NCBI GenBank assembly: GCA_009841615.1
Contig: VXLL01000035.1
Coordinates: 124,001-188,000, forward strand
Direction: 5' to 3'
DNA length: 64,000 bases
Origin: Gammaproteobacteria bacterium
GTDB taxonomy: Bacteria > Pseudomonadota > Gammaproteobacteria > Pseudomonadales > Azotimanducaceae
In this document: piece after piece, positions 25,733 through 64,000 of the stretch
Position numbering within the stretch: position 1 is the stretch's first letter
Layout of the letters: each line of letters starts with the position of its first letter
Made by a program: the position numbers and the translations under genes
The notes under the pieces: model-generated
What the model was told of the DNA's origin: nothing
The model's input: the letters and a program-made list of their open reading frames with translations, nothing else
The model's database searches: none

Positions 25733-27034
25733 ATGTTAAGGAGAGTTTTATTCGGGTTCTGTGTGGCATTGTTTTTGGTTGCAAACACGATGTCCGGCGC
25801 GACGTTTAATACGTTCTGGAACATGGGGGACTTTACCGTTCCTCCGGATCCTACTGCTCATATCGAGGAATCTGAAGAGCACCAAGATGCGTGGCAACAA
25901 GCACAACAGAAGTGTCTCCCGATCGACAGATTCGAGATTCTAGAAGATGAAGAGTGTCTTGAAGCTCTACAAAAATATTTTCTCAACGAACCAGTGTGGG
26001 CATATAGCATGTTGTATCACTATGACCGTCGGGACGGTTTACAACCACTCCCGGTTAAGCTAGTTAATTCTCGACCCCAAATGTTGCCTTATAGCTATGC
26101 GGACTTTCTTAAGGAAGACATTCCGTATTGGCGGGACATTTTTGATGGAAACCTCCATCGAACCATATCTCGTTTTCAACGTGTCATTACAAATGACGAG
26201 TGTATGGAATTGAGCAAACAGACAAGTATTGGGATTAGTGCGGACTTAGCAAAACAATGTGAGGCTCGAGCAATGTTTAAATATGCGACTTTTCTCGACG
26301 GTTGTAACGTCTCAATGCAACAAATGATGATTCTCATTAATCATCCCGACTTGAGCCAAGTTTTTGATAGTAAGAGTTCCAGTGGTTATGCTGCGGTACT
26401 AGAAGTAATCGAAGAAAAAATCGAAGATAGTTCACAACGCGAGCTTGCCCGGCAACGTTTCGAAAAAGGATTTTTGCACGCTATATGGTTGCGATACGAA
26501 TGTGAGCCATGGGGTTATTCGCTACTACCGGACATTGAGACCACGCCACCTCCTAAGGAATCGACGTCCCTCCTTTGGTCAGCTAATCTAGATCTCGCGT
26601 TTCAGCGGATTAATCGTACACACGACACAATTCTGAAAATTGCAGCGAAGTGTGGAGACTCGTGGGCGATTCAGAGCTATCCTTTGGGAATCTTTACCAG
26701 TCATGAATTCAATGATGATGTAAAAGAACGGCATCCACTACTGATGCACCGACATTTAGGTTCGCACACAGGGTGGTTCCGGAGCGAATTGACGTTCGCA
26801 GAACGTCTGCAACATCAAGCGAAAGCTTTTCTCTTGTTGGAGGATTCTGTTGGCGAGAACAACGCACGCAAAGAGTATGATCCTATCGAGCTAGAGGACG
26901 CGATTGAATACGTTTCAGACGGAGGTCAGTTGAAATACGCCCGTCCGTTGAGTGAAATATTGAGAACGAGAGAAGAGCGTTTCGATGATGAAGAAGACCT
27001 GATTTTGAAAGAGTCCGGTTTTAAGGAGCTCTAG
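25733..27034 (+). CDS. Exported protein of unknown function, paralogue 2
   Basis: The 433-residue protein is a diverged duplicate of the preceding one, alignable over its full length. It has a signal peptide (RRVLFGFCVALFLVANTMSG) and the matching blocks EPVWAYSMLYHYDRRDG, YWRDIFDG, GDSWAIQS and EYDPIELEDAIEYV. The six shared cysteines are kept and one more occurs in AAKCGDSW. A TAGGAG site lies 7 bases before the ATG. The C-terminal tail is acidic in both copies. Function unknown; the conserved aromatic and cysteine positions point to a folded extracytoplasmic domain rather than a filler sequence. Confidence 0.82.
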   Translation: MLRRVLFGFCVALFLVANTMSGATFNTFWNMGDFTVPPDPTAHIEESEEHQDAWQQAQQKCLPIDRFEILEDEECLEALQKYFLNEPVWAYSMLYHYDRRDGLQPLPVKLVNSRPQMLPYSYADFLKEDIPYWRDIFDGNLHRTISRFQRVITNDECMELSKQTSIGISADLAKQCEARAMFKYATFLDGCNVSMQQMMILINHPDLSQVFDSKSSSGYAAVLEVIEEKIEDSSQRELARQRFEKGFLHAIWLRYECEPWGYSLLPDIETTPPPKESTSLLWSANLDLAFQRINRTHDTILKIAAKCGDSWAIQSYPLGIFTSHEFNDDVKERHPLLMHRHLGSHTGWFRSELTFAERLQHQAKAFLLLEDSVGENNARKEYDPIELEDAIEYVSDGGQLKYARPLSEILRTREERFDDEEDLILKESGFKEL

Positions 27035-27708
27035 CATTCTAAGTTCTTGCGCACATCTAAATAGTTTTCAAATGCTTTCAAGCAATGTTGGAATGACCCA
27101 CGACCACCGAGCTTATCTGCAGTTAGAGTCGACAATTTGTGGATAGAACAAGCAGCAGTTTTTAAACGTTATACGCGATACTGGCTAATACGGCAACTGA
27201 CAACCTTGGGTGGTTCACGAGATTGCTCTTTGCAACAGCCTGAGAAATACTGACGCGATTCGAAGAGTAATCCTTTATTAGAAGTTGATTGGGTCTACAA
27301 CGTCGCAATCGGGCGAATGTGTTTCACTCTTAAGAGTTTGGAATACTCGGAGGAACGCGAATGTTCCAACATATCGAATTTTTACTGCTATTCGCGACGG
27401 TTCAACGTAGCTTGCCGCAGTAATTTTTATCTTCAATCTTGTAGTAGCACTGAATCAAGTTGGAACTTTCTTAGCGCGGAGCGTGTCGAAACGGGACCAA
27501 GAAATACTCACTACTGTACAGTGTGAGAAAAGCAACAACAATCCAAGAAAACACCGTTGATTTCGTGCGTTCACGACGAATGAGAGTGGTTAATTGCAAC
27601 GTATAATGGTTACGGAACCATGACATGAAATTTAATTGGATTTGGTGAAATTCTCACAATGACATTAGTGCTCTGAACTAATAGTCCAACCACTGATAGG
27701 AGAAATTG
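27035..27708. promoter_or_regulatory. Long intergenic region upstream of the first receptor gene
   Basis: This 674-base gap separates the second exported protein from the first TonB-dependent receptor. A consensus -10 box TATAAT lies at 27602-27607, about 100 bases before the receptor start, but no good -35 box is visible. A short frame with a strong ribosome-binding site lies at 27361-27423 and is listed separately. The length of the gap suggests regulated expression of the receptor. Confidence 0.4.
27361..27423 (+). CDS. Possible 20-residue leader peptide
   Basis: An ATG at 27361 follows GGAGG (27349-27353) by 7 bases, which is as good as any ribosome-binding site in the window. The frame encodes 20 residues with a hydrophobic middle (FLLLFATV) and stops at TAA. 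It could be a leader peptide or a chance frame. Nothing else supports it. Confidence 0.2.
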   Translation: MFQHIEFLLLFATVQRSLPQ

Positions 27709-30498
27709 ATGTTAGACCAACGTTTACATTCTCGAATACAAACAATTTTGCTAATTCTTGGCGGTATCTTTTTAAGTCTCGGTGTGTTCGCACAGGATGC
27801 GAACGACGATGAAGCATCTGAAGAAATTGAAGAAGTTGTCGTCACTGGGTCGCGCATTGTGCGAACCGATTTGGAAGGCACGAGCCCGGTACAGATCTTT
27901 GAGCGTATGGAAATCGCGAGGTCAGGGCAAACGTCCATCGGTCAGTTGCTGCGAGAAATTCCTTCGGTAGCAGGCGGTGCACAAACCACGCAAATCAACA
28001 ACGGGGGCGACGGAACGAACAGAATCTCATTACGCGGATTGGGTTCGACGCGTACCCTAGTGCTAATGAACGGCCGTCGGCTTCCACCAAGTTCGACAGG
28101 CTTAGCGTCCACGAACCTTAGTAGTGCCGTGGACTTGAACACAATTCCTGTATCTATGGTTGATCGAATTGACGTATTCAAGGACGGCGCTTCAGCAATT
28201 TATGGTTCGGATGCAGTTGCAGGTGTGGTAAACATTATTACACGACGAGATTTCCAAGGGATGGAAATGAACGTGCAGAGCGGGATCACACAGGAAGGTG
28301 ACGGTGCTCGCAATGTTGTTGACTTAACAATTGGCGGCAGTTCCGATAACGGCTCGTTTATGGCGTATGCTGGCTACGTCGACGAAGCGAGTATCTGTGC
28401 TTGTGACAGAGATTGGGCCGCTACGCCGTTAGCTTACTTTGGTGGTGATGTAATTTTCTTAGGGAGTTCAGCGCCTCCCTGGGGACGCTATCGATTTACC
28501 CAAGACGGAACAGATATGGATCTCACGCGTGGTCCCGAATTTGGTGATTTCCGCCCGTTCAGCTTCTTTGGCGGCGATTCGTACAACTTTGCTCCTTCAA
28601 ATCATCAAAGACAACCGAGTATCCGTTGGAGCATGATGTTTCTCGGAGACCAAAATCTCTCTGATTTCCCTGTTCTAGGGGACGTTCGAGTGTTCGTACG
28701 CGCAAGTTATTTAAACCGTGATAGCAATCAAAAACTTGCCGAGACTCCACTCGCGCCACTAGCGTTCTTCTCATATAACGCACCTTACAGTAAGGATAAC
28801 TTCTACAACCCATTTGGTGCTGACATTCCAGATTGGCGCAGACGTATGGTCGAAGACGGTTCGAGAACTGAAGATACCCTCACTGAAACTAAACAAATTG
28901 TTATTGGATTCGATGGAGTGCTCAATTCGTGGCATTGGGATGCATACCATGCTTTCGGCGAAACTGCCTCCGAGGGACATTTCGGTCGAATTTACAACCT
29001 TGAAAAGGTTGCGAACGCCGTCGGACCGTCGTTAAAAGATGCTGATGGTAATTGGGTCTTGGATTCTGATGGCAATCCGATGTGTGCGAATGATACGGCC
29101 AACTGTGTTGTGCTTAACACTTTTGGTGAGAATAGTGTGACTCAGGCAATGGTCGATTACATCACGTTTGTCGATAATCAGTCCAGTCTGCAAGACCAAA
29201 AAATCTACGCTGTGAACTTTGTTAATTCAGCGATTTTGGAACGAGATGCAGGCCCAGTCGGCATGGCGTTTGGTTGGGAATGGCGCGAGGAGCGCGGAGC
29301 AGATGTACCTGACTCTCAAGTCAATGCTTTGGGTAGTGGTGCTACCGGTACGCCTCGAAAACCAACTTCTGGTGGGTATACCGTAAATGAACTCTATGGA
29401 GAACTAAATATTCCCATCATTGCAAACCAAGCGATGTTTGAACTTCTAGAAACGAACGTAGCACTCCGCTATTCTGATTACGACTCATTCGGTACTACCA
29501 CGAACGGGAAATTTGGATTGAAGTATCGGCCGATTGACAACGTACTGCTAAGAACGTCCTTTTCCCAAGCGTTCCGTGCGCCATCGACCTCTAACCTCTT
29601 CGGCGGCAGTGGATTTTCATTCCCAGCGCTTGCGGATCCTTGCTCTCAGAACCCAACGCAGTTCTGTATTGCTGACGGAGTACCTGCAACTGGGTTTCAA
29701 CCAATCTCCACTCAGATTCGTACCACTGTAGGTGGCAATCCTACAGCACAACCAGAAACGGCCGATATCCTAACATATGGAGTTGTTGTTTTTGGACCTA
29801 TAAACGGTCTTTCTGTCACGGTCGATCGCTTTGACGTTTCTCTGACAGATGCTTTGACGACACTGGGTGCAAGCTTCATCTTGTCACAGTGCGCGCAGAC
29901 GGGTAATTTCTGTAATCTTGTTGAGCGTTTCACGAGCGGTCCGAACGCTGGTAATCCGATAAACGTTGTGAACACTATCACCAACGTCGGCGGGGTAGAC
30001 ACTAGTGGTTGGGACATCGGAGTTTATTACGATTGGGGCGAGACTTTCTTAGGCGATGTCTCAATCACCTATGAAGCCTCTCTTTTGAGTGAATATTTAA
30101 TTACCCGTGCGGACAACACAACCGACGACTTAACCGGTCGCTTCTCCGACGATCTTGGTGGATATTTCACAGAATATCGAAGTAGTACTAGTGTGGTAGT
30201 AACACGCGATGCGTTCACCTTCAGCTACCAAATGAGAGTTATCGGTGAAGCGGAAGAAGAATACACGGATTTCGCGACGGGTGCGACTCTAGAGAGAACG
30301 GTCGATAGTCGTATCTATCACGACATTCACGCAAATCTCGACCTACCAGAACATAACATAATTCTTTCGGGTGGCATCGACAATTTGTTGGACGAAGAGC
30401 CTCCTTTGTCTTTGGATGGATTCAATGACAACACGGACGTAAGAACCTTCGATACCGCAGGTCGCTACTTCTACTTCAAGATAAATTATTCAATGTAA
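27709..30498 (+). CDS. TonB-dependent outer-membrane receptor 1
   Basis: The 929-residue receptor takes up a large substrate across the outer membrane using energy from TonB. It has a signal peptide ending near FAQDAN, a TonB box-like EEVVVTGSRI near residue 45, and the plug domain with LREIPSV, NRISLRGLG and SRTLVLMNGRRL-type blocks (residues 60-180). A beta-barrel follows to the end. Cysteines occur in CACDRDW, CSQNPTQFC and CAQTGNFC. The last residues are FKINYSM, so the usual terminal aromatic residue is absent. AGGAG lies 6 bases before the ATG at 27709, chosen over a TTG three bases earlier. It is followed by a terminator and a close paralogue. Confidence 0.94.
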   Translation: MLDQRLHSRIQTILLILGGIFLSLGVFAQDANDDEASEEIEEVVVTGSRIVRTDLEGTSPVQIFERMEIARSGQTSIGQLLREIPSVAGGAQTTQINNGGDGTNRISLRGLGSTRTLVLMNGRRLPPSSTGLASTNLSSAVDLNTIPVSMVDRIDVFKDGASAIYGSDAVAGVVNIITRRDFQGMEMNVQSGITQEGDGARNVVDLTIGGSSDNGSFMAYAGYVDEASICACDRDWAATPLAYFGGDVIFLGSSAPPWGRYRFTQDGTDMDLTRGPEFGDFRPFSFFGGDSYNFAPSNHQRQPSIRWSMMFLGDQNLSDFPVLGDVRVFVRASYLNRDSNQKLAETPLAPLAFFSYNAPYSKDNFYNPFGADIPDWRRRMVEDGSRTEDTLTETKQIVIGFDGVLNSWHWDAYHAFGETASEGHFGRIYNLEKVANAVGPSLKDADGNWVLDSDGNPMCANDTANCVVLNTFGENSVTQAMVDYITFVDNQSSLQDQKIYAVNFVNSAILERDAGPVGMAFGWEWREERGADVPDSQVNALGSGATGTPRKPTSGGYTVNELYGELNIPIIANQAMFELLETNVALRYSDYDSFGTTTNGKFGLKYRPIDNVLLRTSFSQAFRAPSTSNLFGGSGFSFPALADPCSQNPTQFCIADGVPATGFQPISTQIRTTVGGNPTAQPETADILTYGVVVFGPINGLSVTVDRFDVSLTDALTTLGASFILSQCAQTGNFCNLVERFTSGPNAGNPINVVNTITNVGGVDTSGWDIGVYYDWGETFLGDVSITYEASLLSEYLITRADNTTDDLTGRFSDDLGGYFTEYRSSTSVVVTRDAFTFSYQMRVIGEAEEEYTDFATGATLERTVDSRIYHDIHANLDLPEHNIILSGGIDNLLDEEPPLSLDGFNDNTDVRTFDTAGRYFYFKINYSM

Positions 30499-30736: not shown

Positions 30737-33598
30737 TTGTATTCAACAACTTCGAACTTCTGTGCGAATCCATCGCTGGAAACGTATTTCAATAGAGACT
30801 TTATTTGGGATCGCGCGAGCGCGAGAGTCACTAAACTAGCAAGGTATCTCGCATTATTTGGTCTAGTTTGCATTCCCCTGTCCGTACACACACAAGAGAC
30901 AAAAAACGCGAATCCAACGGATCGTGAACTTGAAGAGCTTGTCGTTACTGGCTCTCGAATTAGCAAGTCAGAGTTAGAGAGCCCCAGTCCAATTCAAGTA
31001 ATTGATCTTGCTTACATTGCGGAGTCAGGTCAAACTTCAGTAGGACAACTGTTACGTGAAATACCGTCAGTAGCTGGTGGAGCTCAGACTACACAGGTCA
31101 ACTACAACGGTGACGGAACAAATCAGATTTCGTTGCGTGGGTTGGGATCGACGCGTACATTGGTCTTAATGAACGGTCGGCGACTACCACCAAGCACTAC
31201 GGGCTTGTCGGCGACGAGTATTAGCAGTGCTGTTGACCTCAATACCGTACCAGTGTCTATCGTCGAACGGATTGAAGTCATTAAGGATGGCGCATCAGCG
31301 ATTTATGGATCCGATGCGGTCGCAGGTGTGGTAAACATCATTACGCGACGAGACTTTCGGGGTTTAGCGGTAAATATACAAACGGGAATCACCCAGGAAG
31401 GTGATGGTGCAAGGAATCTGCTTGATATAACGTTCGGCGACAGAGACGAGCGTAGCGGGTTTACTTTTTTTGCCGGCTACGTTGATGAACAACCAATCTG
31501 TGCTTGCGATCGCGAGTGGGCTGCGGTGCCTATGGCTTACTTCGGTGACGATGTAATTTTTTTAGGTAGCACTGCACCTCCGTGGGGACGCTATGTATTC
31601 ACAGACGGCAGAGAGGAATTCGATCTTACCCGAGGACCAGAGTTTGGCGATTTTCGACCTTTCAGTTTCTTCGGAGGAGATTCTTACAACTTTGCTCCTG
31701 TAAATCACCAGCGACAACCAAGTACTAGGTGGAGCATGATCTTCTTTGGAGATCGCTCCCTGCGAGACTTCTTAGGTATGCGAGAAGTGCGAACTTTTAT
31801 CTCGGCAAGTTACCTCAATCGAGACGGAAACCAGAAAATTGCACCGACACCGCTAGCACCGCTTGCATTCTTCGCCTATGACGCACCCTACAGTAAGGAC
31901 AACTATTACAACCCTTTCGGTGTAGACGTTCCAGATTGGCGTAGACGTATGGTCGAAGGAGGTGCAAGAGTACAAGACATTATCACACAAACAAAACAAG
32001 TGACTATAGGCATGGAAGGATGGACAGGAGAATGGCAATGGGATGCTTATCATGCGTTTGGAGAAACAACTTCAAAGGGTAACTTCGGACGCGTGTACAA
32101 CTTACATAAAGTCGCAAATGCTGTCGGTCCTTCGTTGCGTGACGAGACTGGTGCTTGGGCTCTAGATGCTGACGGCAATCCCCAATGCGCTAACGACACT
32201 GTGAATTGTGTCGTCTTGAACATTTTCAGCGAGAACAGCGTGACGTTAGAAATGCTCAGCTATTTGACATTTATTGATAATCAATCAAGCGTACAAGACC
32301 AAAGAGTCTTGGGCTTTAATATAGTGAATTCAGCTCTGTGGGTTCGAACGGCAGGTCCTGTCGGTATAGCTGCGGGATGGGAATGGCGTGAAGAACGAGG
32401 GGTGGACCAACCAGACTCGCTGGTAAACACTTTGGGAGATGCCGCCACAGGTTTTCCGCGCAAACCGACATCGGGTAGCTATGCTACCAACGAAATCTAC
32501 GTTGAACTCAATATTCCTCTGATTGCGCAGCTAGATTTTGCGGACTTGTTAGAAACAAATTTTGCCTTACGTTATTCCGACTACGATTCTTTCGGCGATA
32601 CTACAAACGGAAAACTTGCTGTGAAGTATCGTCCAGTCCCCAGCTTGACAATTCGAACAACGTATTCGCAAGCTTTCCGAGCACCGTCAATTTCAGATCT
32701 GTTCGGTGGCAATGGCTTTGATTATCCCGCGTTAGTAGATCCATGTTCTCAAAATCCAACCCAGTTTTGTATTGATGACGGTGTGCCATCTACCGGATTC
32801 CAACCGATATCAACACAGATCCGAACTACGATTGGGGGAAATTCCGCGGCTCAACCGGAGACCGCTGAGATTCAAACGTTTGGATTGGTGTATCGTCCAA
32901 TGGGAAGTTTTTCCATCACCATAGATAGATTTGACGTAGCGCTTACTGATGCGTTGTCCACTCTTGGTACAAGTTTCATTCTTGGTCAATGCGCCGCCAC
33001 AGGAAACTTTTGTCATCTAATCGAGCGATTCAGCACTGGCGCTCTAGCAGGAAATCCTGTTAATGTCCAAAACACTGTGACAAATGTCGGAGGAGTCGAC
33101 ACGAACGGGTGGGATATTGCACTAGCTTATGATTGGTCGAACAATTTCCTCGGCGAGATGTCTATTCGATACGAAGCTTCACTGTTGAGTGAATATCTCA
33201 TTACAACCGCTGATATGACCACCAATGATCTTACCGGGAGGTTTGTGGACGATTTAGAAGGGTATTTTGCGAAGTATCGAAGTAGCATAAGAGTCTCAAT
33301 GAAACGCGATAACCTGAAAGTCACTTACCAAGTTCGAACGATAGGTGAAGCTGAAGAGGATTTCACAGACTTTTTGACTGGTAACACTTTGCAACGAACT
33401 GTAGAAGGACGTGTATATCACAATGTTTTAGCAAGCGTGGATCTCACTGATCACGGACTTTCATTGTCCGGAGGTATTAACAATCTATCGAATGAAGACC
33501 CACCGCTTTCTCTCGACGGATTGAACGACAATACCGATGTACGGACGTTTGATACAGCCGGTCGATACTTCTTCTTCAAAATTAACTACTCTATGTAG
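30737..33598 (+). CDS. TonB-dependent outer-membrane receptor 2
   Basis: The 953-residue receptor is a tandem duplicate of the preceding one, similar along its whole length. The plug has ELEELVVTGSRI, LREIPSVAGGAQTTQ and GRRLPPS-type blocks; the barrel keeps CACDREW, CSQNPTQFC and CAATGNFC. It also ends FKINYSM. The only usable start ahead of its signal peptide (LALFGLVCIPLSVHTQ) is a TTG at 30737, about 13 bases after AAGGAGA; the signal peptide then starts unusually late, after about 35 residues. The terminator between the two genes means it probably has its own promoter. Ligand unknown. Confidence 0.92.
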   Translation: MYSTTSNFCANPSLETYFNRDFIWDRASARVTKLARYLALFGLVCIPLSVHTQETKNANPTDRELEELVVTGSRISKSELESPSPIQVIDLAYIAESGQTSVGQLLREIPSVAGGAQTTQVNYNGDGTNQISLRGLGSTRTLVLMNGRRLPPSTTGLSATSISSAVDLNTVPVSIVERIEVIKDGASAIYGSDAVAGVVNIITRRDFRGLAVNIQTGITQEGDGARNLLDITFGDRDERSGFTFFAGYVDEQPICACDREWAAVPMAYFGDDVIFLGSTAPPWGRYVFTDGREEFDLTRGPEFGDFRPFSFFGGDSYNFAPVNHQRQPSTRWSMIFFGDRSLRDFLGMREVRTFISASYLNRDGNQKIAPTPLAPLAFFAYDAPYSKDNYYNPFGVDVPDWRRRMVEGGARVQDIITQTKQVTIGMEGWTGEWQWDAYHAFGETTSKGNFGRVYNLHKVANAVGPSLRDETGAWALDADGNPQCANDTVNCVVLNIFSENSVTLEMLSYLTFIDNQSSVQDQRVLGFNIVNSALWVRTAGPVGIAAGWEWREERGVDQPDSLVNTLGDAATGFPRKPTSGSYATNEIYVELNIPLIAQLDFADLLETNFALRYSDYDSFGDTTNGKLAVKYRPVPSLTIRTTYSQAFRAPSISDLFGGNGFDYPALVDPCSQNPTQFCIDDGVPSTGFQPISTQIRTTIGGNSAAQPETAEIQTFGLVYRPMGSFSITIDRFDVALTDALSTLGTSFILGQCAATGNFCHLIERFSTGALAGNPVNVQNTVTNVGGVDTNGWDIALAYDWSNNFLGEMSIRYEASLLSEYLITTADMTTNDLTGRFVDDLEGYFAKYRSSIRVSMKRDNLKVTYQVRTIGEAEEDFTDFLTGNTLQRTVEGRVYHNVLASVDLTDHGLSLSGGINNLSNEDPPLSLDGLNDNTDVRTFDTAGRYFFFKINYSM

Positions 33599-53597: not shown

Positions 53598-55478
53598 CTA
53601 TGGGTCCTTCGTTGGAGCTAAGGGACCCAGAGTTTCACGATCTATTTCGGTGAGATATTGATCAAGGCTCTCGACCTTTTTTTGGGGAATAGAGTCGTTT
53701 CCATCGTAGAGTACAAACAGTGCATAGGCTGCTTTCGAACGTGCTTCCGCGTTCGGAAGATCTGGTAGCATTGCGTACAGTTTATCTGGGTCCATATTCA
53801 CCCAAATGTAGGAAATGTACTGATAGTAGCTGCTGTGATAGGATTCATCTAATTGAGTACCGAGATTAGCAGCTTTCTTGAACTCTCCACTTCTAACAAG
53901 CGCATCGCCGACCTGTTCATATGCAAAACCCTTAGACTTACCATTGCGAACTTTGGGCAGCAGAGTGAGCGCTAATTCGACATCTTCAGTCGCGATTTGC
54001 GAAACGATTTCTGCTTCAAAACCGACTCCTCCGTTCGCTAACCGTAATGTCAAGGCTAGCTCAAATGCACCAGAAGGGTCGGTCGAAACCATCGAAATCG
54101 CTAAAGTTTGATATAAGAAATGGCGAAATTCGGCGATCGCAGACTCACTTTGTACCCAATTAAGTGCAGCATTTAGGTCGTGTTGACTCCAAACCGAAAC
54201 CAACGCGCGAGCAGCATCGAATTGGTCGATGTCGTCTTCTAATTGCAATACCCAACTAACTGCCACGTCTGGAGATTCAGAGGTCAGGGATTCAATCGCT
54301 GACGTCACGGCATGTGTTCTTGTCTCTTGATGAAAATTTGACAGATTTTGTAATACGTACTCCGGGTGCTTCAAAGCCCAAGTTTCAATAACTGTTTTTC
54401 GCAAAAATTCTCGTAGCGCGATAGGATCTATGTTGCTGACTGCATCATGAGCAGTGCTGGGATCCTGAGTTGCCCATTCGCTTATTACATGAGGCGCGGT
54501 ATCCCATCGCAATCCTAGTTCAAGCTGAGTAGCTATATAGTCGAACGCACGAGCAGGTTCTGACTTTGTGATGTATCTCAACAGGTTGGAAAAGAGCGTT
54601 ACCTTCATTTCATAGTGACTCACCGAAGTCCTTATGCCTTCGAGTACGTCAAAGCCACTGCTCAGGTACCACTGTTTTGCTAATCCCTCCAACTGCGGAG
54701 CAAAGGAAAGGTCTTGCTCGACTATATCGATAACGGCAAACCACACTAAGTCAGGATCTGTAAGATTTTCGAAATCCAGGACATCGAGTAGTGATTTAAC
54801 AAAGTGCTTGTCGAGGTTGAAATCATTGGAAATTTGAGGGTGATGTTCATTCGTTTCTTGAGTATAAGCTTGCAAAATTCCCTCGAACGCGATTTTTCGA
54901 ATTGCCGTCGGTAGTTTCTTAGCGTTTTCGACTGCGGCAGCTAAATTAGAGTTAGCCCAATCTTTGAAGAGCCAAAACAGCATCGCTCCAATACCCGAAC
55001 CGTCCTGACTGTGGTCAAGAACATACTGTATTGCATCTATTGGTTTTGAACTAGAGAGTCTTTCTAGTAAGACTCTTTGAAGATCAGCACGAATTTTCGA
55101 TGATAAATTCCATTGTTGGTCCTCAGATCGGGTTAACAATTCGGCGATGCTTTCATCACTGAGTGGTGCGACAAGTGTATAAAGTGTAGCTCTTCGCTCA
55201 AAGTGATTTTGAAGTTGTTCCAATGCATCAATTTGACGAACAGCACTTTTTATTTGATCGGTACTATTGGTGTTGACTTTGCTAACCAGTGTGTCGTCAC
55301 TGTGTGGTGGAATTGACGGTGAGCTTTCGTTGTAGTTATCGCTTTGGTGTTGAACGGGATTAGAGCTACTAAGATTTGCTAGTATCCATACGGTTAGCGT
55401 AGCGACGACACCGACAATCACTCCTGTAATGATTAGTACTAGTGCTTTAGTCGAGGGAAGAATCTTGATTCTGATCAT
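53598..55478 (-). CDS. Tandem-array helical-repeat protein A (membrane-anchored)
   Basis: The 626-residue protein is the last member, in transcription order, of a six-gene paralogous array. An N-terminal membrane anchor (ALVLIITGVIVGVVATLTVWI, split near residue 30) is followed by a polar linker and then about 530 residues of helical repeats. Repeats show a tryptophan, then D/N-x-A-L: for example WATQDPSTAHDAV and WSQHDLNAALNWV. The C-terminal module has LPKVRNG, a RSKAAYAL stretch and LDQYLTEIDRE, shared by all six. The pattern suggests an alpha-solenoid that faces the periplasm. I cannot name the family or function. The nearest sibling in sequence is the next gene. Confidence 0.85.
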   Translation of the reverse strand: MIRIKILPSTKALVLIITGVIVGVVATLTVWILANLSSSNPVQHQSDNYNESSPSIPPHSDDTLVSKVNTNSTDQIKSAVRQIDALEQLQNHFERRATLYTLVAPLSDESIAELLTRSEDQQWNLSSKIRADLQRVLLERLSSSKPIDAIQYVLDHSQDGSGIGAMLFWLFKDWANSNLAAAVENAKKLPTAIRKIAFEGILQAYTQETNEHHPQISNDFNLDKHFVKSLLDVLDFENLTDPDLVWFAVIDIVEQDLSFAPQLEGLAKQWYLSSGFDVLEGIRTSVSHYEMKVTLFSNLLRYITKSEPARAFDYIATQLELGLRWDTAPHVISEWATQDPSTAHDAVSNIDPIALREFLRKTVIETWALKHPEYVLQNLSNFHQETRTHAVTSAIESLTSESPDVAVSWVLQLEDDIDQFDAARALVSVWSQHDLNAALNWVQSESAIAEFRHFLYQTLAISMVSTDPSGAFELALTLRLANGGVGFEAEIVSQIATEDVELALTLLPKVRNGKSKGFAYEQVGDALVRSGEFKKAANLGTQLDESYHSSYYQYISYIWVNMDPDKLYAMLPDLPNAEARSKAAYALFVLYDGNDSIPQKKVESLDQYLTEIDRETLGPLAPTKDP

Positions 55479-55634
55479 GATTCCGGTCTAATGTTTTTTC
55501 TCTTAATTCCTTTCGTCGTCGATTCGATATGCTCTAGCATCGAGACCAGTTCATTTGGTAAACGAGCACCGACTTTTTACTTTGTTTCTCTAGCTTCTAC
55601 AGCTACACACATCCTAGCTCGAACTAAAGATCCG

Positions 55635-57524
55635 CTAAGGATCTCCGAATGGAACAAGGGTTCCTAGATCTTCACGATCTTTTTCGCTGAGATATTGATC
55701 GAGACTTTCGATCTGTTTCTTTGTTAAAACGTCAGTGTGGACACTAAGTAGACTGAGTGCATATGCCGCTTTAGAACGCGCTACTTGGTTCGGAAGACTG
55801 GGGAGCACTTCAAATAGCCTTTCAGCGTCCACATTGATCCAAGCAAGAGAAATGCTTTCAAAGTAAGTACTATGATCGGACTCGTCTAACCGAAGACCGA
55901 GATCAATGGCTTTTTGAAAGTCGCTGTTTTCCACATGAGCGTTCCCTACTGAACCAAAAGCAATCGCTTTAGTTAGCCCATCGCGCACACTCGGCAGCAG
56001 ACTCAGGGCTAGCTCGACATCTTGACTAGCAATTTTTTCAAGGATGATAGCTTCCAGTCCGACTTGACCCTCGGCTGAAGTATGTTTGAGAGAGAGCTCA
56101 AAAGCTCCTGAGGGGTCGGTTGCGACCATCGCATACGCTAGTGGTTCAATCAAGTGTTCGCGAATGCTGTTGATCGCAGGTTCTTCCAGTACCCACTCTT
56201 GTGCTTGTTCCAATTCATTACGACTCCAAATAGAAACCAAGACTTGTGCGGCTTCAAGTTGTATATTCGCATCGTCTAAACGCAAAACCTGAGAAACCGC
56301 TTGATCGGGTGATTCGGAAGCGAGCTTTGTAATCGCACTAGCCACTGCAGCCGATTGTGTGTGACGAGGAAACTCTGATAAGTGATTTAGAACATAATCG
56401 GCGTCTTGATTGGCCCAGCTTTGCACAACAAGGTGTTGCAAATTTTGTTTCAAAGCATTCGCGTTCAACCCGCTTATTGACTCTAGCGCAGCCCTCGGAT
56501 CTTGGATGGCCCACTCTTGAATTACCGATTCAGTTGCTTCCCATCCCCAACCCACATCGAGTTGTGTGAGTTGCGTGACGCTATAGTCTAACGCGCGAGC
56601 AGGTTCTGATTCGGCCACGAACCGCAGCACGTTTGCTATTAGCGTACTTTTCATGTCCATGTCATTCATCGTACTCAGTATCTGGTCGAATGCGTTGAAG
56701 CCACTCTTTGCATACCACTGTTTCGCCAATTCACTTAGTTGTGTCACGAAAAAATAGTCTTTCTCCGCTACGTCAATCACGGCTGTCCACGCAAGTTCAG
56801 GTTCCTCGAGACTTTCAAAATCTGTGGAGTTCAGGAAAAAGTTAACAAAGTATGCGGTTAGATTTAACTGATCGGCAAGTTCGCGGTGATGAGAGATCGG
56901 ATGGACGAAGTAGGCTTGCAAAATACCTTGGAGCGCAATCTTTCGGGTTTCCACTGGTAGAGTATTGGCTTTCGCAATTGCGCTTTCTACATCAGCATTC
57001 GACCAGTCGGCAAAAATAGAAATGAGAGTGGGACGAAGAGTATGCATACTTCGTTTTTGGTTAAAAACAAACTCTATCGCTTCTGCCGGACTTGTCATGG
57101 AAAGCCGCTCGAGTAACACGTCTTGCAGTTCCAAACGAATTTTTGGTGGAATATCCCATTGCGAGTCAACAGATCGGTTCAGTAGATCTTCAGATTTTTG
57201 AGTATTGAGCAGTGAAATGAGCGCATATAGCGTTGCAAATCTATCAATACTCTGTCCCTGGTCTGCTAAAGCTTCAACTTCAGCAAGCACATTGTTCAAA
57301 GTACCCTGAGTGTAGTTAAACAAATTGTTATCGAAGCTGATTTCACCGTCGGTTTGTCTCGGTTTTAGCGAGTCGTCCGGCGCATTGCTTAGTTGTTGTT
57401 CAGAAGAATGAGTATTGAGCTTTACGAGCATACCAACGACGAGGGTCGCACCGACACCAAGTATCAGGCCCGCAGCTAAGACTAGAACTGGTTTTAAAAA
57501 GGAATTTAGTTGCAAGCTCTTCAT
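55635..57524 (-). CDS. Tandem-array helical-repeat protein B (membrane-anchored)
   Basis: The 629-residue paralogue has the anchor LVLAAGLILGVGATLVVGML at about residues 13-32. It aligns with protein A over its whole length, for example in WAIQDPRAALESI, WSRNELEQAQEWV, LPSVRDG and LDQYLSEKDRED. It is separated from gene A by 156 non-coding bases, unlike the tight 4-base joint to gene C. A and B look like the most recent duplication. There is no enzymatic motif. Function unknown. Confidence 0.85.
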   Translation of the reverse strand: MKSLQLNSFLKPVLVLAAGLILGVGATLVVGMLVKLNTHSSEQQLSNAPDDSLKPRQTDGEISFDNNLFNYTQGTLNNVLAEVEALADQGQSIDRFATLYALISLLNTQKSEDLLNRSVDSQWDIPPKIRLELQDVLLERLSMTSPAEAIEFVFNQKRSMHTLRPTLISIFADWSNADVESAIAKANTLPVETRKIALQGILQAYFVHPISHHRELADQLNLTAYFVNFFLNSTDFESLEEPELAWTAVIDVAEKDYFFVTQLSELAKQWYAKSGFNAFDQILSTMNDMDMKSTLIANVLRFVAESEPARALDYSVTQLTQLDVGWGWEATESVIQEWAIQDPRAALESISGLNANALKQNLQHLVVQSWANQDADYVLNHLSEFPRHTQSAAVASAITKLASESPDQAVSQVLRLDDANIQLEAAQVLVSIWSRNELEQAQEWVLEEPAINSIREHLIEPLAYAMVATDPSGAFELSLKHTSAEGQVGLEAIILEKIASQDVELALSLLPSVRDGLTKAIAFGSVGNAHVENSDFQKAIDLGLRLDESDHSTYFESISLAWINVDAERLFEVLPSLPNQVARSKAAYALSLLSVHTDVLTKKQIESLDQYLSEKDREDLGTLVPFGDP

Positions 57525-57528
57525 AGTG

Positions 57529-59361
57529 CTAGTTTTCTGTTTTCTTCAGCAACTTACGATCTTCTTCGATGAGATAGTCTTCTAAGGAAGCTATTTGTTC
57601 GTCCGTCAAACTAGCAACTCGGCTTTGTTGTTGAATGAGGTACAACGCTGCCTTTGAACGTGCCTCTCCTGTTGGGAAGTTCTCGATTTCTCGTAGTAAG
57701 GTTTCAGGGTCGTCGTACGCCAATACACTTGCGAGAACATCATAAAATTGAGTACTGTCCTCGATTGGTAAATTCTGACCGAGAGATAGAGCTTTCGCGA
57801 TTTCCCCGTGCTGGAGGTACGTGTACGCGACAACTGAATGTGCCTGAACTTTAGGTTGACCCGTTCGAACATGTGGCAACAATTCGGTTGCAGCTTCGAG
57901 GTCCGTCTCGGTTAGCATATAAATTAACTCGACCTCCCATGCTTGTCCATCAGCAGTGAGTGGTTGTTGTGAGGCGATTTGAACTGCGCGCGTTGGGTCC
58001 GTAAAAGACAAATGAAGGACAAATTCATACAACACCTGCGTACGAAACGAATCCAAGCTCGGTTCACCTTCAATCCAATTCAATGCAGCATCGACATCTT
58101 GAAGTGACCAATGTGCGACGAGCAAGCCAGCGGCAGTTTGCCGTGCTTCTTCGTCTTCCAAACTCGATACGATTTCGGCAGCATCTTCCGGTGCAGACTC
58201 CGCCATGGCGTAGATCGCTAGTTGTACAGCATTTGGTCTTATAGCAGGGTCAAGAGAATCTTGGTGCGTGAGAAGGTCCTGGGGCGAGATTTGTGTCCAA
58301 GCCCGTACGATGGTGAACTGTAATTGGTTTCGAAATGGACTAGGCTCTAATGTGTTAACAGCGTTAAGCGCGGCCTTGTGATCGGTTGTTACCCACACAT
58401 CGATTACAAGCTCTAATAGTGAGTTTCGATACTCGAAGTCTACGTTACGGACGTATGCAAAGGCCGCTGCTGGGGTTATGGGTGCGAGTTGGGAAACAAC
58501 GCTAAATAGTGTGTCGCGCTCCCAATCTACGTACGGCAGCGACTCTCGGACGGTTTTCATCACCGAAAAGCCATCTCGCGAGACCCACGTTAGAGCTACG
58601 TGCACAAGGGTCTCGAAATGTGCGTCAACAGGTTCGACTAGGCCGACGGCTTCGTTCCAGATTTCTTCTAGATCCGCAGTAAAGTCGTTACATCGAATTT
58701 CTAGGTAAATACTTGTTGCAAGGGGTTCGAGTTGTAATTCTTGACCATATTTTTGGCTCGTCGTGCGAGAAAGATTAGTTTCAGATGCTAGAAGCCCTCT
58801 GAGTGCACTTGGCTTATCTGTACGGTCGAGGTTGCTAGCATGTGCAATCGCTTCACTAAAGGTCGACTCGTCCCAGTGCGTGAATACCGCGGTCATGAAT
58901 GAAGACCGGTTTGGTCCTGCGGTCCGCAGGGCAAATTGCAATGCTTGATTTGGACTCTGGGCGGCCAGGAAAGAGAGTAAGACAAGCTGAATTTCAGAGT
59001 GTGTCTGGCGGTCTCGACCCCAAATTGCGTTTGCTGATTGCGAAAGCAGAAATTGAATTTGGTCTTCATTTAAGTTCGAAAGTAATGCGTATAGAGCTGC
59101 ATTGCGTTCAAACTTGTGCTGGAGAGCCGATGTTTGCTCAAGCCTAGTGAGTAATTCTTGCGCATTGTCAATTTGAACAGTGTCATTAACTCTTCGATCA
59201 ATACTGCTTAGGTTCTCTGTTCTCGCACTTCCTCCGGAAGTACTCACTGGTGTCTGTGAGTCACGGTCGTTGATGGTGAACTGCACGAAAAGTGTCGCGC
59301 CGACACCGAAAAAAATTCCGATCACGAAAAGTGTTACTAAGTTTCTAGAAACTCTTTTCAC
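57529..59361 (-). CDS. Tandem-array helical-repeat protein C (membrane-anchored)
   Basis: The 610-residue paralogue starts at a GTG and has the anchor LVTLFVIGIFFGVGATLFVQF at about residues 8-28. The GVGATL wording is shared with protein B. Repeats include WVTTDHKAALNAV and WSLQDVDAALNWI; the end module reads LPHVRTG, ARSKAALYL and LEDYLIEEDRKLL. Few cysteines are present. It is 4 bases upstream of gene B, so those two are surely co-transcribed. 161 bases separate it from gene D. Confidence 0.85.
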   Translation of the reverse strand: MKRVSRNLVTLFVIGIFFGVGATLFVQFTINDRDSQTPVSTSGGSARTENLSSIDRRVNDTVQIDNAQELLTRLEQTSALQHKFERNAALYALLSNLNEDQIQFLLSQSANAIWGRDRQTHSEIQLVLLSFLAAQSPNQALQFALRTAGPNRSSFMTAVFTHWDESTFSEAIAHASNLDRTDKPSALRGLLASETNLSRTTSQKYGQELQLEPLATSIYLEIRCNDFTADLEEIWNEAVGLVEPVDAHFETLVHVALTWVSRDGFSVMKTVRESLPYVDWERDTLFSVVSQLAPITPAAAFAYVRNVDFEYRNSLLELVIDVWVTTDHKAALNAVNTLEPSPFRNQLQFTIVRAWTQISPQDLLTHQDSLDPAIRPNAVQLAIYAMAESAPEDAAEIVSSLEDEEARQTAAGLLVAHWSLQDVDAALNWIEGEPSLDSFRTQVLYEFVLHLSFTDPTRAVQIASQQPLTADGQAWEVELIYMLTETDLEAATELLPHVRTGQPKVQAHSVVAYTYLQHGEIAKALSLGQNLPIEDSTQFYDVLASVLAYDDPETLLREIENFPTGEARSKAALYLIQQQSRVASLTDEQIASLEDYLIEEDRKLLKKTEN

Positions 59362-59522
59362 CTAATCGACACCCTCTCTCTTCATGAAATTTGCTGGTAG
59401 GTGCATTTCAGAAAGTTTCAAGTACAGACTTTCGATTGCGTTCGAAACTTCCAGTCCTGTAGCAAGTACCGCTGATTCAATGCACTCACCGTACAACCTT
59501 GCGTGCAACACTTCGAGGGTTT

Positions 59523-61244
59523 TCACCATTGAAAATATAGTTGATCAACGTCATCTTCCGTTAAGTGCTTCTGTAAAGTTTCAATCTGCTTATCGGTGAG
59601 TTTGTCATATCGTCTATTCCAACGCAGCAATAGCTGTGCTGCGGTAGACCTAGTTTCAGTCGTTGGAAGTGTAGAAATTTCATCAGCGAAGCCGATAGGG
59701 TCTCCGTCGATCCAATCATAAGTGACTAAGTCGAAATACCAGCCTCGATCAGTTTCAGTCAAATCCTGAGCGAGATCCATTGCTTCTCGTATGTCGCCTT
59801 GATACCGCATCGCACGTCCAACGTGGAGCATGGCGACTCTCTTTGTGATACCGTCTCGTACATCTGCTAGTAGTTCTCTTGCCAGATTTAAATCTTTTCT
59901 CGATATGTTGTACAAAATTTGCGCCTCCAATCCGATACCAGAAGTACCTGACGAATTCATTATTTGCTGTTCGCGCGCGAATTGAAAAGCACGCACCGGA
60001 TCTGAATCTAATGTGTGATAAACCAACTGTTCTCGTATTTTTTCGATCAAGCCTGTACTAGAAGGGTTTTTGAGAAACCAGTCAAGCAGAGTGTGCGGTT
60101 CTTCTTTCGACCAAATAGGTAATAGCCACTGTACCGCTATAGTTCGTAAAGACGAATCTTCAATCTGCAGTGCAAAGTCTCCGGCTTCTTGCAATGAAGA
60201 TTCTGCGATCGTTGCGACTCCCACTCTTGCCGCAACATATCTTGCCCTTTCTGGAATAACGTCGAGATTTTGAAGGATATAGCGAGGTTCCTTTGCTGCC
60301 CAAACTGTAGCAATCTCTCGTTGCCAGTTCTCTCTTGTATCCGCAGACCCAATATCAGCCACAGCTTCAGTTGCCGCATGGACATCAGTTTCAGCCCACC
60401 TTCGAATCACTAATTCCTCTAAGCTGTAATCTCGTTCGGGAAGACTAGTTACGTATTCGAACGCGGTGCGAGGTGACCTTTGTGCAAGAAAATCCAATAC
60501 AGCACTTAAAGAAACACCGGTGCGGTAGGTGTCCTCGGGTGCGTCGTGAATTTGGTCTAAAACCGCGACCCCATCTTGCTTAAACCATTGAATAGCTAAG
60601 CGTGACAATATTTCGTTGTAGTCACTAGACCAACTAAAGTTGTCCTGTTTCGACATTTTTGCTATTCCATACCAAGCAGTTTTTGGATCGTCAACCAGCT
60701 CCACATTGACTATGAGTTGATAGTACTCTACTGCCTGTTTTTTGTCTAGATTTAGTCTTACCGAGATGTCACGTAGACTGTCTAAAGGCATTTCTAAATT
60801 TGCTCTAACGATGCTTTTCATGGCCTGAGTTCTATCACTCCAATTTAAATCTTTGGCGTGGGTGATTACCGCTTCCAAATCCACCATCGACCAAGAATCG
60901 AATACGGTTTTAACAAATTTTTTTCGATTCTCGTCAGCACTATCTAACGCGAACTCGAGAGCAACTGTCGGTTTTTCTTTCGTCAGTCGCTGCAACAATG
61001 CTATCTGAAGTTCATCTTTCACTCGAGAGGACATTCTTTGCCGTGTGTTCTTCGTGAGCTCTTCGAGCCTGCTTTCAACAGCCTTACTCGGTAGATCACC
61101 TACATGAGAATAAACTGCGACAAATCTCTCTACCGAGTCTTCGTGTAGTCTCTTGTCCGTCAACGGATTCGCACAGAGATCTCCATTATTCGACAAGATC
61201 CCCACGGCAACTACGAACAATCCACATGTGAAAAGTGGTTTCAC
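59523..61244 (-). CDS. Tandem-array helical-repeat protein D (signal peptide)
   Basis: At 573 residues this is the shortest member. Its N-terminus (MKPLFTCGLFVVAVGILSNNG) looks more like a signal peptide than the GVGATL anchors of B and C, and the polar linker is missing. It may therefore be released into the periplasm. Repeats include WAETDVHAATEAV and WSKEEPHTLLDWF; the end module is LADVRDG, TRSTAAQLLL and LQKHLTEDDVDQL. The start is a GTG. It is the most diverged from A and B at several motif positions. Confidence 0.83.
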   Translation of the reverse strand: MKPLFTCGLFVVAVGILSNNGDLCANPLTDKRLHEDSVERFVAVYSHVGDLPSKAVESRLEELTKNTRQRMSSRVKDELQIALLQRLTKEKPTVALEFALDSADENRKKFVKTVFDSWSMVDLEAVITHAKDLNWSDRTQAMKSIVRANLEMPLDSLRDISVRLNLDKKQAVEYYQLIVNVELVDDPKTAWYGIAKMSKQDNFSWSSDYNEILSRLAIQWFKQDGVAVLDQIHDAPEDTYRTGVSLSAVLDFLAQRSPRTAFEYVTSLPERDYSLEELVIRRWAETDVHAATEAVADIGSADTRENWQREIATVWAAKEPRYILQNLDVIPERARYVAARVGVATIAESSLQEAGDFALQIEDSSLRTIAVQWLLPIWSKEEPHTLLDWFLKNPSSTGLIEKIREQLVYHTLDSDPVRAFQFAREQQIMNSSGTSGIGLEAQILYNISRKDLNLARELLADVRDGITKRVAMLHVGRAMRYQGDIREAMDLAQDLTETDRGWYFDLVTYDWIDGDPIGFADEISTLPTTETRSTAAQLLLRWNRRYDKLTDKQIETLQKHLTEDDVDQLYFQW

Positions 61245-61265
61245 TACGAAATGTCCCTGATCGAA

Positions 61266-63125
61266 TCAACGATTTTCATCAAGAAAAATCTTGTCTCCCT
61301 CATTCAAGTATGTCTCCAGCGTTTGTAACTGGCTGTCCGTGAAATAATTCGTCGAATGATTCCAAAAAATCTGTTGCCGTGCAACGTAGGAACGAACCCT
61401 TGCCCCTGGAAATTTTTGGATCGCATTGAGTAACCCCGCAGGATTGGAGCTTGCCCATGGCCAGGATAAACGTAAGTAATAGGAATAACGGTCGTTTGAC
61501 TTTAAGTCGGTACCAAGATCAATCGCTTCGTCCGTTTTTCCCCGATTGAACAATTCTTCTGCAACACTCACATAAGCGTTCATCTGGGTCTTTCCTTCTC
61601 GAACATCGGGTAGCAGTTCAAGTGCCAGAGACAAATCATCTGAAGCGATATCGCGCATCAGGTCTCCTTCCAAACCAAAGCCGTGATAAGGAATTGTTTG
61701 TCTGAGCCCGACTTGGAAAGCGAGCTCTCGTTCGCCTTTATCTATCAATTTCCATGCTAGTGTATGGAAGAGTTTGTTTCGTAGGTCTTTGCTGTCTGGA
61801 CTTGACAGAACCCATTCGACGCAAGCGTTCAAGTCTCGACTTGCCCATTCTTCAACGAGTGCTCTTGCCGCACTCAATTGCAAATCCTCGTTGAGTTGGA
61901 AAACCATTTCAACCGCTTGAGCAGGTGAGTTAGTCCTGACTAGTCTTTCGATTGCTTGGACACTGACTGCTTCGTGTAGTGAAGCAGGGAGTTGGTGTAG
62001 GTTATCTAACAGTTTCATGGGTTCAGACCGCGACGAGGCAAAAGGATATTTCCAATCGATACCCATCCAGACCATTGTGCCTCGGCTCTCTAACTCTCTC
62101 CGCAGTTGACTGTAAGGTAGTCCATGCACTTTTCTTAGTGCTTCGATGGCATCTCCATATTTAGCCCACGTTCGAACAATTTCGTGCAATGTAAGTTCTT
62201 TATCTGCAACGTCATGTTTCAACGCGTAGTCGAACGCTTGTTCTGGTTGAGACTGAGCTAACCAATTCAGTGCTTCAGTGAGAACTTTCTTTCTATGCCC
62301 ATAGTTTGCAATAGAGTCGTTGATTTCATCAAGTACACTAATACCAGATTCGTCAATCCAAACTTGGACTATAGGGATTAAGTCATCGTAGGCTTGGGGC
62401 TGTGTTTGAGCAAGTTTTAATGTTTTATGCCACTCTTCTTTGGGTTCTTCCACTCTGTCACGTTTTTCTGAATCTAAAGCGTGATCCGGAAGGTTTTCTT
62501 CGAAGCGAAAATCATTTATGATTTGCCTTTTATCGTCGTCGTTGAGTTCATCATTGTCTGCAACGATGGTTCTTAGTAGGTCCAATCGTTCATAAGCCCA
62601 AACGTCCAAACTCTTTATCTGTTCGATTGCGGTAGATAAATCTCTAGTTCCCCATTCGGAAAAAACAGTATTCAGCAATTGTTTGCGTATCGGGTCTACA
62701 CGTGCGAGTGCAAACGCCAAGGCCTGTTCGGGGTTGTTCGTTGCGAGACGTTGGACCAATAACGTTTGGATTCGGTCTCTTGTACTTTGTGACACTTCCC
62801 AAGAAGCTTCAGTAGACTGGGAGAGCCAGTCGGCCAACTTCTTTTCGTCAAGTTCCAAAATCCAAGAGGCAATTGCGACATTGCGCGCGAAGGGTTCATC
62901 CGGAATCTCCAGATCTTCGATACGAAGAGGTAGTGCTGACTCGCGTGAAGCAACTTTCTTGAATTGACTTGAACGCGTGGTATTCTCACCCCCGGTATCC
63001 AACTTCGACTGTACGACGCTTTCCTCGTCAAGAGGTATTACAACGGCAAGCGTTGCGATCACCACGAGAACGTTTCGCAAACTGTATAACGCAGATTTCA
63101 ACGGTGCAACTTGAAACTGAAGCAC
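61266..63125 (-). CDS. Tandem-array helical-repeat protein E
   Basis: The 619-residue paralogue has a weak hydrophobic N-terminus (LRNVLVVIATLAVVIPL, about residues 17-33). Repeats include WAKYGDAIEALRKV and WASRDLNACVEWV. The end module reads LPDVREG, VRSYVARQQ and LETYLNEGDKIFL. A charged insert (EEPKEEWHKTLK) near residue 225 is not in the other copies. The start is a GTG, 13 bases after gene F ends, and the stop is 21 bases before gene D, so D, E and F form one transcript block. Confidence 0.83.
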   Translation of the reverse strand: MLQFQVAPLKSALYSLRNVLVVIATLAVVIPLDEESVVQSKLDTGGENTTRSSQFKKVASRESALPLRIEDLEIPDEPFARNVAIASWILELDEKKLADWLSQSTEASWEVSQSTRDRIQTLLVQRLATNNPEQALAFALARVDPIRKQLLNTVFSEWGTRDLSTAIEQIKSLDVWAYERLDLLRTIVADNDELNDDDKRQIINDFRFEENLPDHALDSEKRDRVEEPKEEWHKTLKLAQTQPQAYDDLIPIVQVWIDESGISVLDEINDSIANYGHRKKVLTEALNWLAQSQPEQAFDYALKHDVADKELTLHEIVRTWAKYGDAIEALRKVHGLPYSQLRRELESRGTMVWMGIDWKYPFASSRSEPMKLLDNLHQLPASLHEAVSVQAIERLVRTNSPAQAVEMVFQLNEDLQLSAARALVEEWASRDLNACVEWVLSSPDSKDLRNKLFHTLAWKLIDKGERELAFQVGLRQTIPYHGFGLEGDLMRDIASDDLSLALELLPDVREGKTQMNAYVSVAEELFNRGKTDEAIDLGTDLKSNDRYSYYLRLSWPWASSNPAGLLNAIQKFPGARVRSYVARQQIFWNHSTNYFTDSQLQTLETYLNEGDKIFLDENR

Positions 63126-63138
63126 ATGTATTCCCGCA

Positions 63139-64000
63139 TTACTCTTCTCGTGTCTGACGTTCTTCTTCTATTATGTACTGATTTAGTGTTTCGAGCTGGC
63201 TATCAGAGAAGTTTTGAACATGCATTCGAGACAACTCGCTCGCAACATTTGAGCGAAGCTCCGCCGTTGGAAAGTCTTTTAGCGCAGCTAATACTGCGGT
63301 CGGATCGAATTTCGCCCATTCATAGGAGATGCTGCGGTAGAAACTGTCTCTCGCATCGTCCGGTAGTTGCTGCACTAGACTTAGTGCTCTTTCTGGTTCT
63401 CCGTTTGCTACAAGACTGACTCCAATGGATCGGGTGACCGCGGTTGTAGTCTCTCCATCTCTAGCTTCTGGTAGTAACTCTATAGCAGTATCGACGTCCC
63501 TAAATGCGAGTGCTGACAGTAATTGGGCTTCAAGTCCAATATTTCGTCCTTCCTGGATGGGTTGCTGGGCGGCAATCTGGATTGCACGTTTTGGGTCTGA
63601 ATCGACCATCATGGACAGGACACTCTCAAGTAGCCGCCCTCTGTTTGGTTCGGTTTCGGGATATTCCAACACCCAATCCAATGTGGCGTTTACATTGTCT
63701 TGAGCCCATTGATAAACCAACGATTCAGCTGCTCGTGACCGCATCTCCGCATCTTCCAGTTGCAGAACTAATTCACTCGCTTCGTTTGGCGAAGACTGTG
63801 CGAGGCTAGAAAACGATCGGCTCACAGCAGACATTTGGGTAGACTTGGGTATAGTTTCTAAATTCGCTAATAGCTCTCGGGGATTGGCACTCGCCCAAGA
63901 GTTTACTGCCGTGTTTTGCAATCTTTCGCGCATTCCGCTCGGTTCTACGACTTTAACTGCCTCAAGCGCGGCGCGTGGGTCCATTTCCGCCCATACGAAC
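63139..64000 (-). CDS. Tandem-array helical-repeat protein F (cut by right edge)
   Basis: The frame is open to the right edge; the first visible residues read FVWAEMDPRAALEAV, which is the repeat motif, so the methionine at 63984 is internal. The visible 287 residues align with the C-terminal halves of the other five: WAQDNVNATLDWV, LPEARDG, LRSNVASEL and LNQYIIEEERQ. It ends 13 bases before gene E. Roughly half of the protein and possibly more array members lie beyond the window. Confidence 0.85.
   Translation of the reverse strand, partial: FVWAEMDPRAALEAVKVVEPSGMRERLQNTAVNSWASANPRELLANLETIPKSTQMSAVSRSFSSLAQSSPNEASELVLQLEDAEMRSRAAESLVYQWAQDNVNATLDWVLEYPETEPNRGRLLESVLSMMVDSDPKRAIQIAAQQPIQEGRNIGLEAQLLSALAFRDVDTAIELLPEARDGETTTAVTRSIGVSLVANGEPERALSLVQQLPDDARDSFYRSISYEWAKFDPTAVLAALKDFPTAELRSNVASELSRMHVQNFSDSQLETLNQYIIEEERQTREE

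Follow-up and report, generated by a model that had tools for sequence, protein, structure and literature searches.

The array of helical-repeat paralogues at the end of the window (the whole 64,000-nucleotide stretch analysed here) contains only a few members of a single unnamed protein family that has expanded across the genome. Many genes of this family are organised as two-gene cassettes whose mates co-diverge. After removal of nested and duplicate ORFs, the family counts 114 ORFs in the genome (G000), of which 106 are near full length, and together they amount to 205 kb, or about 7.7% of the 2.657 Mb assembly; the ORFs of the tree run from stop to stop, so this total is slightly high. There is in our judgement an even chance that the family encodes heteromeric pairs of membrane-anchored periplasmic scaffolds whose partners have diversified, and that these scaffolds are non-enzymatic, each pair serving one or more envelope partners of its own.

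The sequence-only reading had described the segment 53598-64000 as a tandem array of one strongly diverged family, with no other gene in between and continuing past the window edge. This description was borne out on every point. The array comprises five complete minus-strand ORFs of 573-629 aa and a sixth that is truncated by the edge (Table 1), and the remaining ORFs listed in the segment are short and overlap the members in other frames. The members align end to end, with 27-44% identity to the first. Outside the window, the array reaches C17:203490 as a single run of 13 near-full genes, which the tree resolves into five A-B pairs (A being the upstream and B the downstream gene of a cassette) and three other genes.

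Table 1 Members of the family in the window array and location of the expanded redoxin family (window positions unless a contig or locus is named)
Feature	Location	Strand	Description
Family member, 626 aa	53598..55478	minus	Terminal array gene, B-type in tree; tandem sister of the 55635..57524 gene
Family member, 629 aa	55635..57524	minus	B-type in tree
Family member, 610 aa	57529..59361	minus	In neither the A nor the B clade of its type
Family member, 573 aa	59523..61244	minus	Downstream (B) gene of the cassette, mate of 61266..63125
Family member, 619 aa	61266..63125	minus	Upstream (A) gene of the cassette, mate of 59523..61244
Family member, C-terminal portion	63139..64000	minus	B gene of the next cassette, truncated by the window edge (whole gene C17:187142-189022)
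Expanded redoxin family	C1:37558-39360 (L036:17558-19360), C2:20132-29262, C25, C32, elsewhere		Same genome

The count of copies past the right edge, also proposed from the sequence, revealed a family far larger than the part of it seen in the window. To make the catalogue, the window members were turned into an HMM, which was then run iteratively against the window itself and the 33 stretches surrounding family matches. Five of the 114 ORFs are shorter than 400 aa, and two of these are truncated at contig ends (C10:110358-110702 and C28:1-345). Both contig ends carry the 3' end of a family gene and are near-identical over the 29 residues compared, so that one copy may have been counted twice; they probably reflect a recent duplication at which the assembly broke.

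Profile searches of Pfam, NCBIfam and PHROG gave no convincing fit, and the family remains unnamed, as it had been in the sequence-only reading. None of the six window members had a Pfam or NCBIfam match that reached the cut-off of its model; every Pfam match was sub-threshold and none of the Pfam repeat families TPR, HEAT, PPR and Sel1 exceeded its curated cut-off. Among 57 diverse members searched at E = 0.01, where cut-offs were not displayed, no Pfam family was matched by more than one member. PE and PPE models are absent from the Pfam matches of both the six and the 57 members. The best match of one member compared to the PDB with phmmer had an E-value of 0.16. A profile of the 57 members matched designer PPR repeats (best E = 1.8e-11, around columns 481-536) and, weakly, LapB (E = 0.03); we read both matches as a likeness of repeat type. 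In the literature, judged by titles and abstract openings, we found no description of such a family.

The repeats themselves differ from the form first proposed, W-x4-D/N-x3-A-L, since W-x4 is not enriched (10 occurrences vs 12.7 in shuffles). The signature is W-x3-[DN]-x3-A, which occurs 228 times in 109 proteins, compared to 12.3 times in shuffled sequences. The claim of a fixed C-terminal module stands only in part: the C-terminal half is mostly better conserved, with a block mean entropy that goes from a maximum of 3.18 bits in columns 1-50 to a minimum of 2.49 in columns 451-500, but the structural models contain no separate C-terminal domain. Catalysis is unlikely, as W, P, A, L and G predominate in the best-conserved columns. 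AlphaFold2 models of two members, for each of which 36 proteins encoded in the window and in the stretches L066-L069 were used, are all-helical solenoids and not unrelated folds. Both the A gene (window positions 61269-63125; pLDDT 82.6, pTM 0.57) and the B gene (59526-61244; pLDDT 87.4, pTM 0.71) are modelled as helical hairpins throughout, preceded by a low-confidence N-terminus. Foldseek retrieved only generic HEAT/ARM/TPR solenoids for both models, with a best E-value of 4.6e-4 and TM-scores of at most 0.32 among the 50 matches listed per model.

The N-terminal anchor or signal noted in the window is a feature of the whole family: a hydrophobic segment was detected in 108 of the 109 proteins of at least 400 aa, and that of the last one scores 1.58 for a threshold of 1.6. 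The flank preceding this segment is more positive than the following one in all 108 proteins (means of +2.1 vs -2.8, the first of which may include untranslated codons). The predicted topology is therefore N-in, with the solenoid in the periplasm; like the fold, it is a prediction. GxxxG motifs are present in 67 of the 108 hydrophobic segments, compared to 28.5 expected from shuffles, although counts among relatives are not independent. Cysteine represents 0.2% of residues. By eye, a minority of members, for instance the type II downstream genes, have short N-terminal segments that may be cleaved signals. The sequence-only reading had seen here a diversified set of periplasmic scaffold or binding proteins. 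The analysis supports a diversified, anchored and probably periplasmic set of helical-repeat proteins, and their binding or scaffold role is something that we infer.

The organisation of the family was studied in this genome and in a distant high-copy species (G007). The 109 longer genes of the former are distributed in 40 co-directional runs: 22 of two genes, four of four, two of three, nine single genes and three arrays of 10, 11 and 13 genes. The upstream and downstream genes of many pairs make up separate, mirrored clades in the family tree, which, like the tree with G007, that of the low-copy members of the genus and the RpoB tree below, was reconstructed with FastTree and has weak deep nodes. 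In this tree, the ten-gene array of C10 corresponds to five alternating pairs and the 11-gene array of C1 to a single type. G007 has 80 family ORFs, and its 60 near-full genes are found in 37 runs (17 two-gene, two four-gene and 18 single). Several cassettes have orthologous A and B genes in both species: the G007 genes C3:51742/49895 are orthologous to C1:88658/90596 of the present genome, and C6:31560/33558 to its C10:44073 type. Considering both genomes, the nearest relatives of two mates are themselves mates in 20 of the 39 two-gene runs; in 500 shuffles, which take no account of block duplication, the mean was 0.7 and the maximum 4. Nevertheless, pairing is not general, since nine of the 40 runs of the first genome and 18 of the 37 runs of G007 are single genes and the C1 array is of one type. 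Thirty-two of the 39 two-gene runs are heterotypic and seven homotypic. A swapped gene order in two G007 pairs was hinted at by the tree and received no support from BLAST scores.

The split between partners probably occurred more than once, unless an early whole-gene conversion in each type erased an older split. This was evaluated on a 42-row tree made up of 21 pairs from the own genome, which were chosen after seeing the tree, so the p-values are not those of a group named in advance. The A/B label requires seven changes on this tree, at least five of which are forced by the starred branches. A single ancient split can be rejected: constraining all the A genes to a single clade lowers the log-likelihood by 230 units (p-AU = 3.85e-08). 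The single A clade is also rejected by the N-terminal half (p-AU = 2e-4) and by the C-terminal half (p-AU = 6e-11) of the alignment, and this agreement dismisses partial gene conversion as the source of the A/B clustering within types. Both halves recover types I, V and VI as single groups; for types II and III only one half does so, and for type IV neither. Since mates tend to be sister lineages within their type, a repeated A/B split is the probable interpretation.

Heteromeric pairs would explain this organisation as follows. The N-terminal helix would anchor each protein in the inner membrane and leave its long helical solenoid in the periplasm, where the two products of a cassette would most likely assemble with each other through both the membrane helix and the solenoids. 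The cassettes would duplicate as units and scatter through the genome while their mates diverge together, which would result in some 40 different pairs per cell, besides the solitary and single-type copies. Whole-cassette duplication would keep the pairs matched and divergence would yield new specificities, each pair being a non-enzymatic scaffold that holds or recognises its own periplasmic or envelope partner or partners. The physical heteromers, the binding function and the distinct ligands of each pair are what we infer. Yet, block duplication alone could produce mirrored trees. In that case, the duplication unit would contain two genes by chance and the proteins would act alone or as homomers, in agreement with the existence of solitary genes, of single-type arrays and of the homotypic two-gene runs. 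Nevertheless, the pairs persist at scattered sites amid unrelated neighbours, and the orthologous cassettes retain both genes across a distant species pair, although genes free from each other should often lose their neighbour. We consider block duplication without heteromers rather unlikely.

The comparison of copy number among relatives places the expansion in one clade of the genus. Among 18 genomes of the genus, ten (including the own genome) have at least 39-79 match rows and eight have 0-7, with up to 72 candidates scored per genome and the possibility that one gene splits into several rows. An RpoB tree was built for 24 genomes, of which 17 belong to the genus (G003, G012 and G016 being partial rows and G017 missing). 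In it, all ten high-copy genomes form one clade (support = 1.0) and the seven of the eight low-copy genomes that are present branch outside it. Thus, the expansion belongs to one clade. The RpoB frames measure 1472-1473 aa in several low-copy species vs 1364-1390 in the full-length high-copy ones, and that of G004 (C17:36796-42603; L136, L139) reaches about 1.9 kaa, with an in-frame match gap of about 1.4 kb near profile position 180. The low-copy members of the genus have few family genes, mostly in tandem and in clades of their own. Wider draws (E = 0.001, own genome included, at most three candidates scored per genome) covered 369 genomes of the class, 9 of which had a match, and 398 of the phylum, of which 6 did. 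The best outside matches (G204 and G377) are anchored proteins of about 700 aa, for which no Pfam or NCBIfam model exceeded its cut-off.

A check for positive selection had been proposed, and such selection is not pervasive in gene-wide averages. For four array genes, clear orthologues are present in L066-L069 and give dN/dS values of 0.17-0.36, which indicate that these genes are kept by selection, vs 0.03-0.20 in four flanking genes, for some of which dS is saturated. The gene at 57529-59361 has a best match of only 29-32% identity in the same stretches, yet G011 contains a strong match to the window profile, a pattern of gene birth and loss. Family fragments or broken copies in G007 (C5:488326-488875, C12:118170-120018 and C11:168833-170479) are also signs of gene birth and loss.

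The neighbours of the family loci were surveyed in 90 of 92 ORFs, the other two being in-frame shorter forms of others. Many of them are housekeeping genes. A constant partner gene can be discarded, as only thioredoxin-fold families recur in more than two of the 90; AhpC-TSA domains are present in nine. The secreted AhpC-TSA/TlpA-like redoxin encoded at C1:37558 gives 59 match rows in the own genome at E = 0.01. At E = 1e-10, each of the ten high-copy species gives 18-58 rows and each of the eight others 0-3, one gene possibly being split into several rows. The expansions of the family and of the redoxins may be one shared event and their counts track each other only loosely within the ten species, so a functional link between them is only a lead. 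Other observations concern the window itself. The ORFs 24320-25600 and 25733-27034 are tandem paralogues of about 430 aa with signal-like N-termini and seven match rows in the own genome; one of these rows, at C1:122495, adjoins the single-type solenoid array. By eye, a 1605-aa ORF (7937-12754) resembles a fusion of an RND transporter with an ABC-type ATPase, and 27706-30498 and 30737-33598 are closely similar tandem ORFs resembling TonB-dependent receptors.

A broader scenario, which we put forward as speculation and regard as unlikely, would make the repertoire of the clade a set of dozens of co-evolved heteromeric scaffold pairs. These would descend from one ancestral self-associating protein, having passed from homomers to heteromers on several independent occasions. 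Deployed in the envelope together with the secreted redoxins, which are equally expanded, they would serve a life with an animal host as a variable system for recognition or for the handling of clients. The related MAGs have isolate codes that we take to be those of reef sponge and coral sets, and a reef-animal habitat is a lead for these relatives; four related loci come from MAGs labelled Gammaproteobacteria, Pseudomonadales or OMG group. Of these codes, SB0677 appears in print as the name of a Nitrospira in a sponge study (PMC12203066). The proteins could also act on the animal host directly, as unrecognised proteins of the same kind as the eukaryotic-like repeat proteins known from sponge symbionts. 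The isolate codes and the restriction of the expansion to one clade would be congruent with this, as would the enrichment of eukaryotic-like helical repeat proteins of other families, including TPR and HEAT, that another study reports in sponge MAGs (PMC8163846). However, the predicted inner-membrane anchor would put the solenoid in the periplasm, beyond the reach of the host, and no recurrent secretion gene was found among the 90 neighbours; such a role seems distinctly improbable. Finally, a diversified store of periplasmic proteins for immunity or protection against phages could account for fast-diverging paralogue arrays, some members of which lack a close match in relatives, and for matches to the PADLOC OloA model in 4 of the 57 members (best E = 3.5e-8), but it is very improbable. 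The OloA match inspected, which comes from a set of 10 of the 57 and is not the best-scoring one, covers 190 of the 596 profile positions (69-258), over the repeats and with E = 0.002. The PHROG matches of the 57 members are two weak ones to two families, by one member each. Except for DNA methylase domains, present in two of the 90 neighbours, no toxin or defence family recurs among them.

If they do form heteromeric scaffolds, dozens of close paralogue pairs in one cell raise the question of how cross-talk is avoided, and partner genes that split more than once would make up a natural series for asking how homomers turn into specific heteromers. The share of its 2.66 Mb genome that an uncultured marine bacterium devotes to one unnamed family is relevant by itself. 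If the family were host-linked, a large class of symbiosis proteins would have been missed by annotation with known repeat models.

Among known proteins, the G204 and G377 proteins of other Gammaproteobacteria are homologous to the family and share its N-terminal hydrophobic segment and full-length repeats, but they are longer and have one copy in the stretch fetched. The models resemble HEAT, ARM, TPR and PPR solenoids in their predicted superhelix of helical hairpins, a likeness to which the designer PPR match adds, and depart from them in the low Foldseek scores given above. LapB-like and flagellar periplasmic scaffolds are also helical-repeat scaffolds located at the inner membrane or in the periplasm. 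The similarity to them is weak and local (9hmf_K is among the Foldseek matches listed for the second model, 59526-61244), and we know of no duplication of these proteins on such a scale. The eukaryotic-like repeat proteins of sponge symbionts have in common with the family their helical repeats and their expansion in bacteria that we take to be reef-animal associates; unlike them, the present family has no accepted repeat model, is predicted to be membrane-anchored in the periplasm and has paired genes. The PE/PPE proteins of mycobacteria are a large lineage-specific expansion that takes up several percent of the genome; they are all-helical and encoded by adjacent gene pairs whose products pair. 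The size of the expansion, the adjacent gene pairs and the all-helical structure, here modelled, are similar, which does not imply homology, and the pairing of the products is here putative. Contrary to PE and PPE, of which the Pfam searches gave no match, the two mates of the present gammaproteobacterial pairs belong to one and the same family as paralogues, and a membrane helix anchors them.
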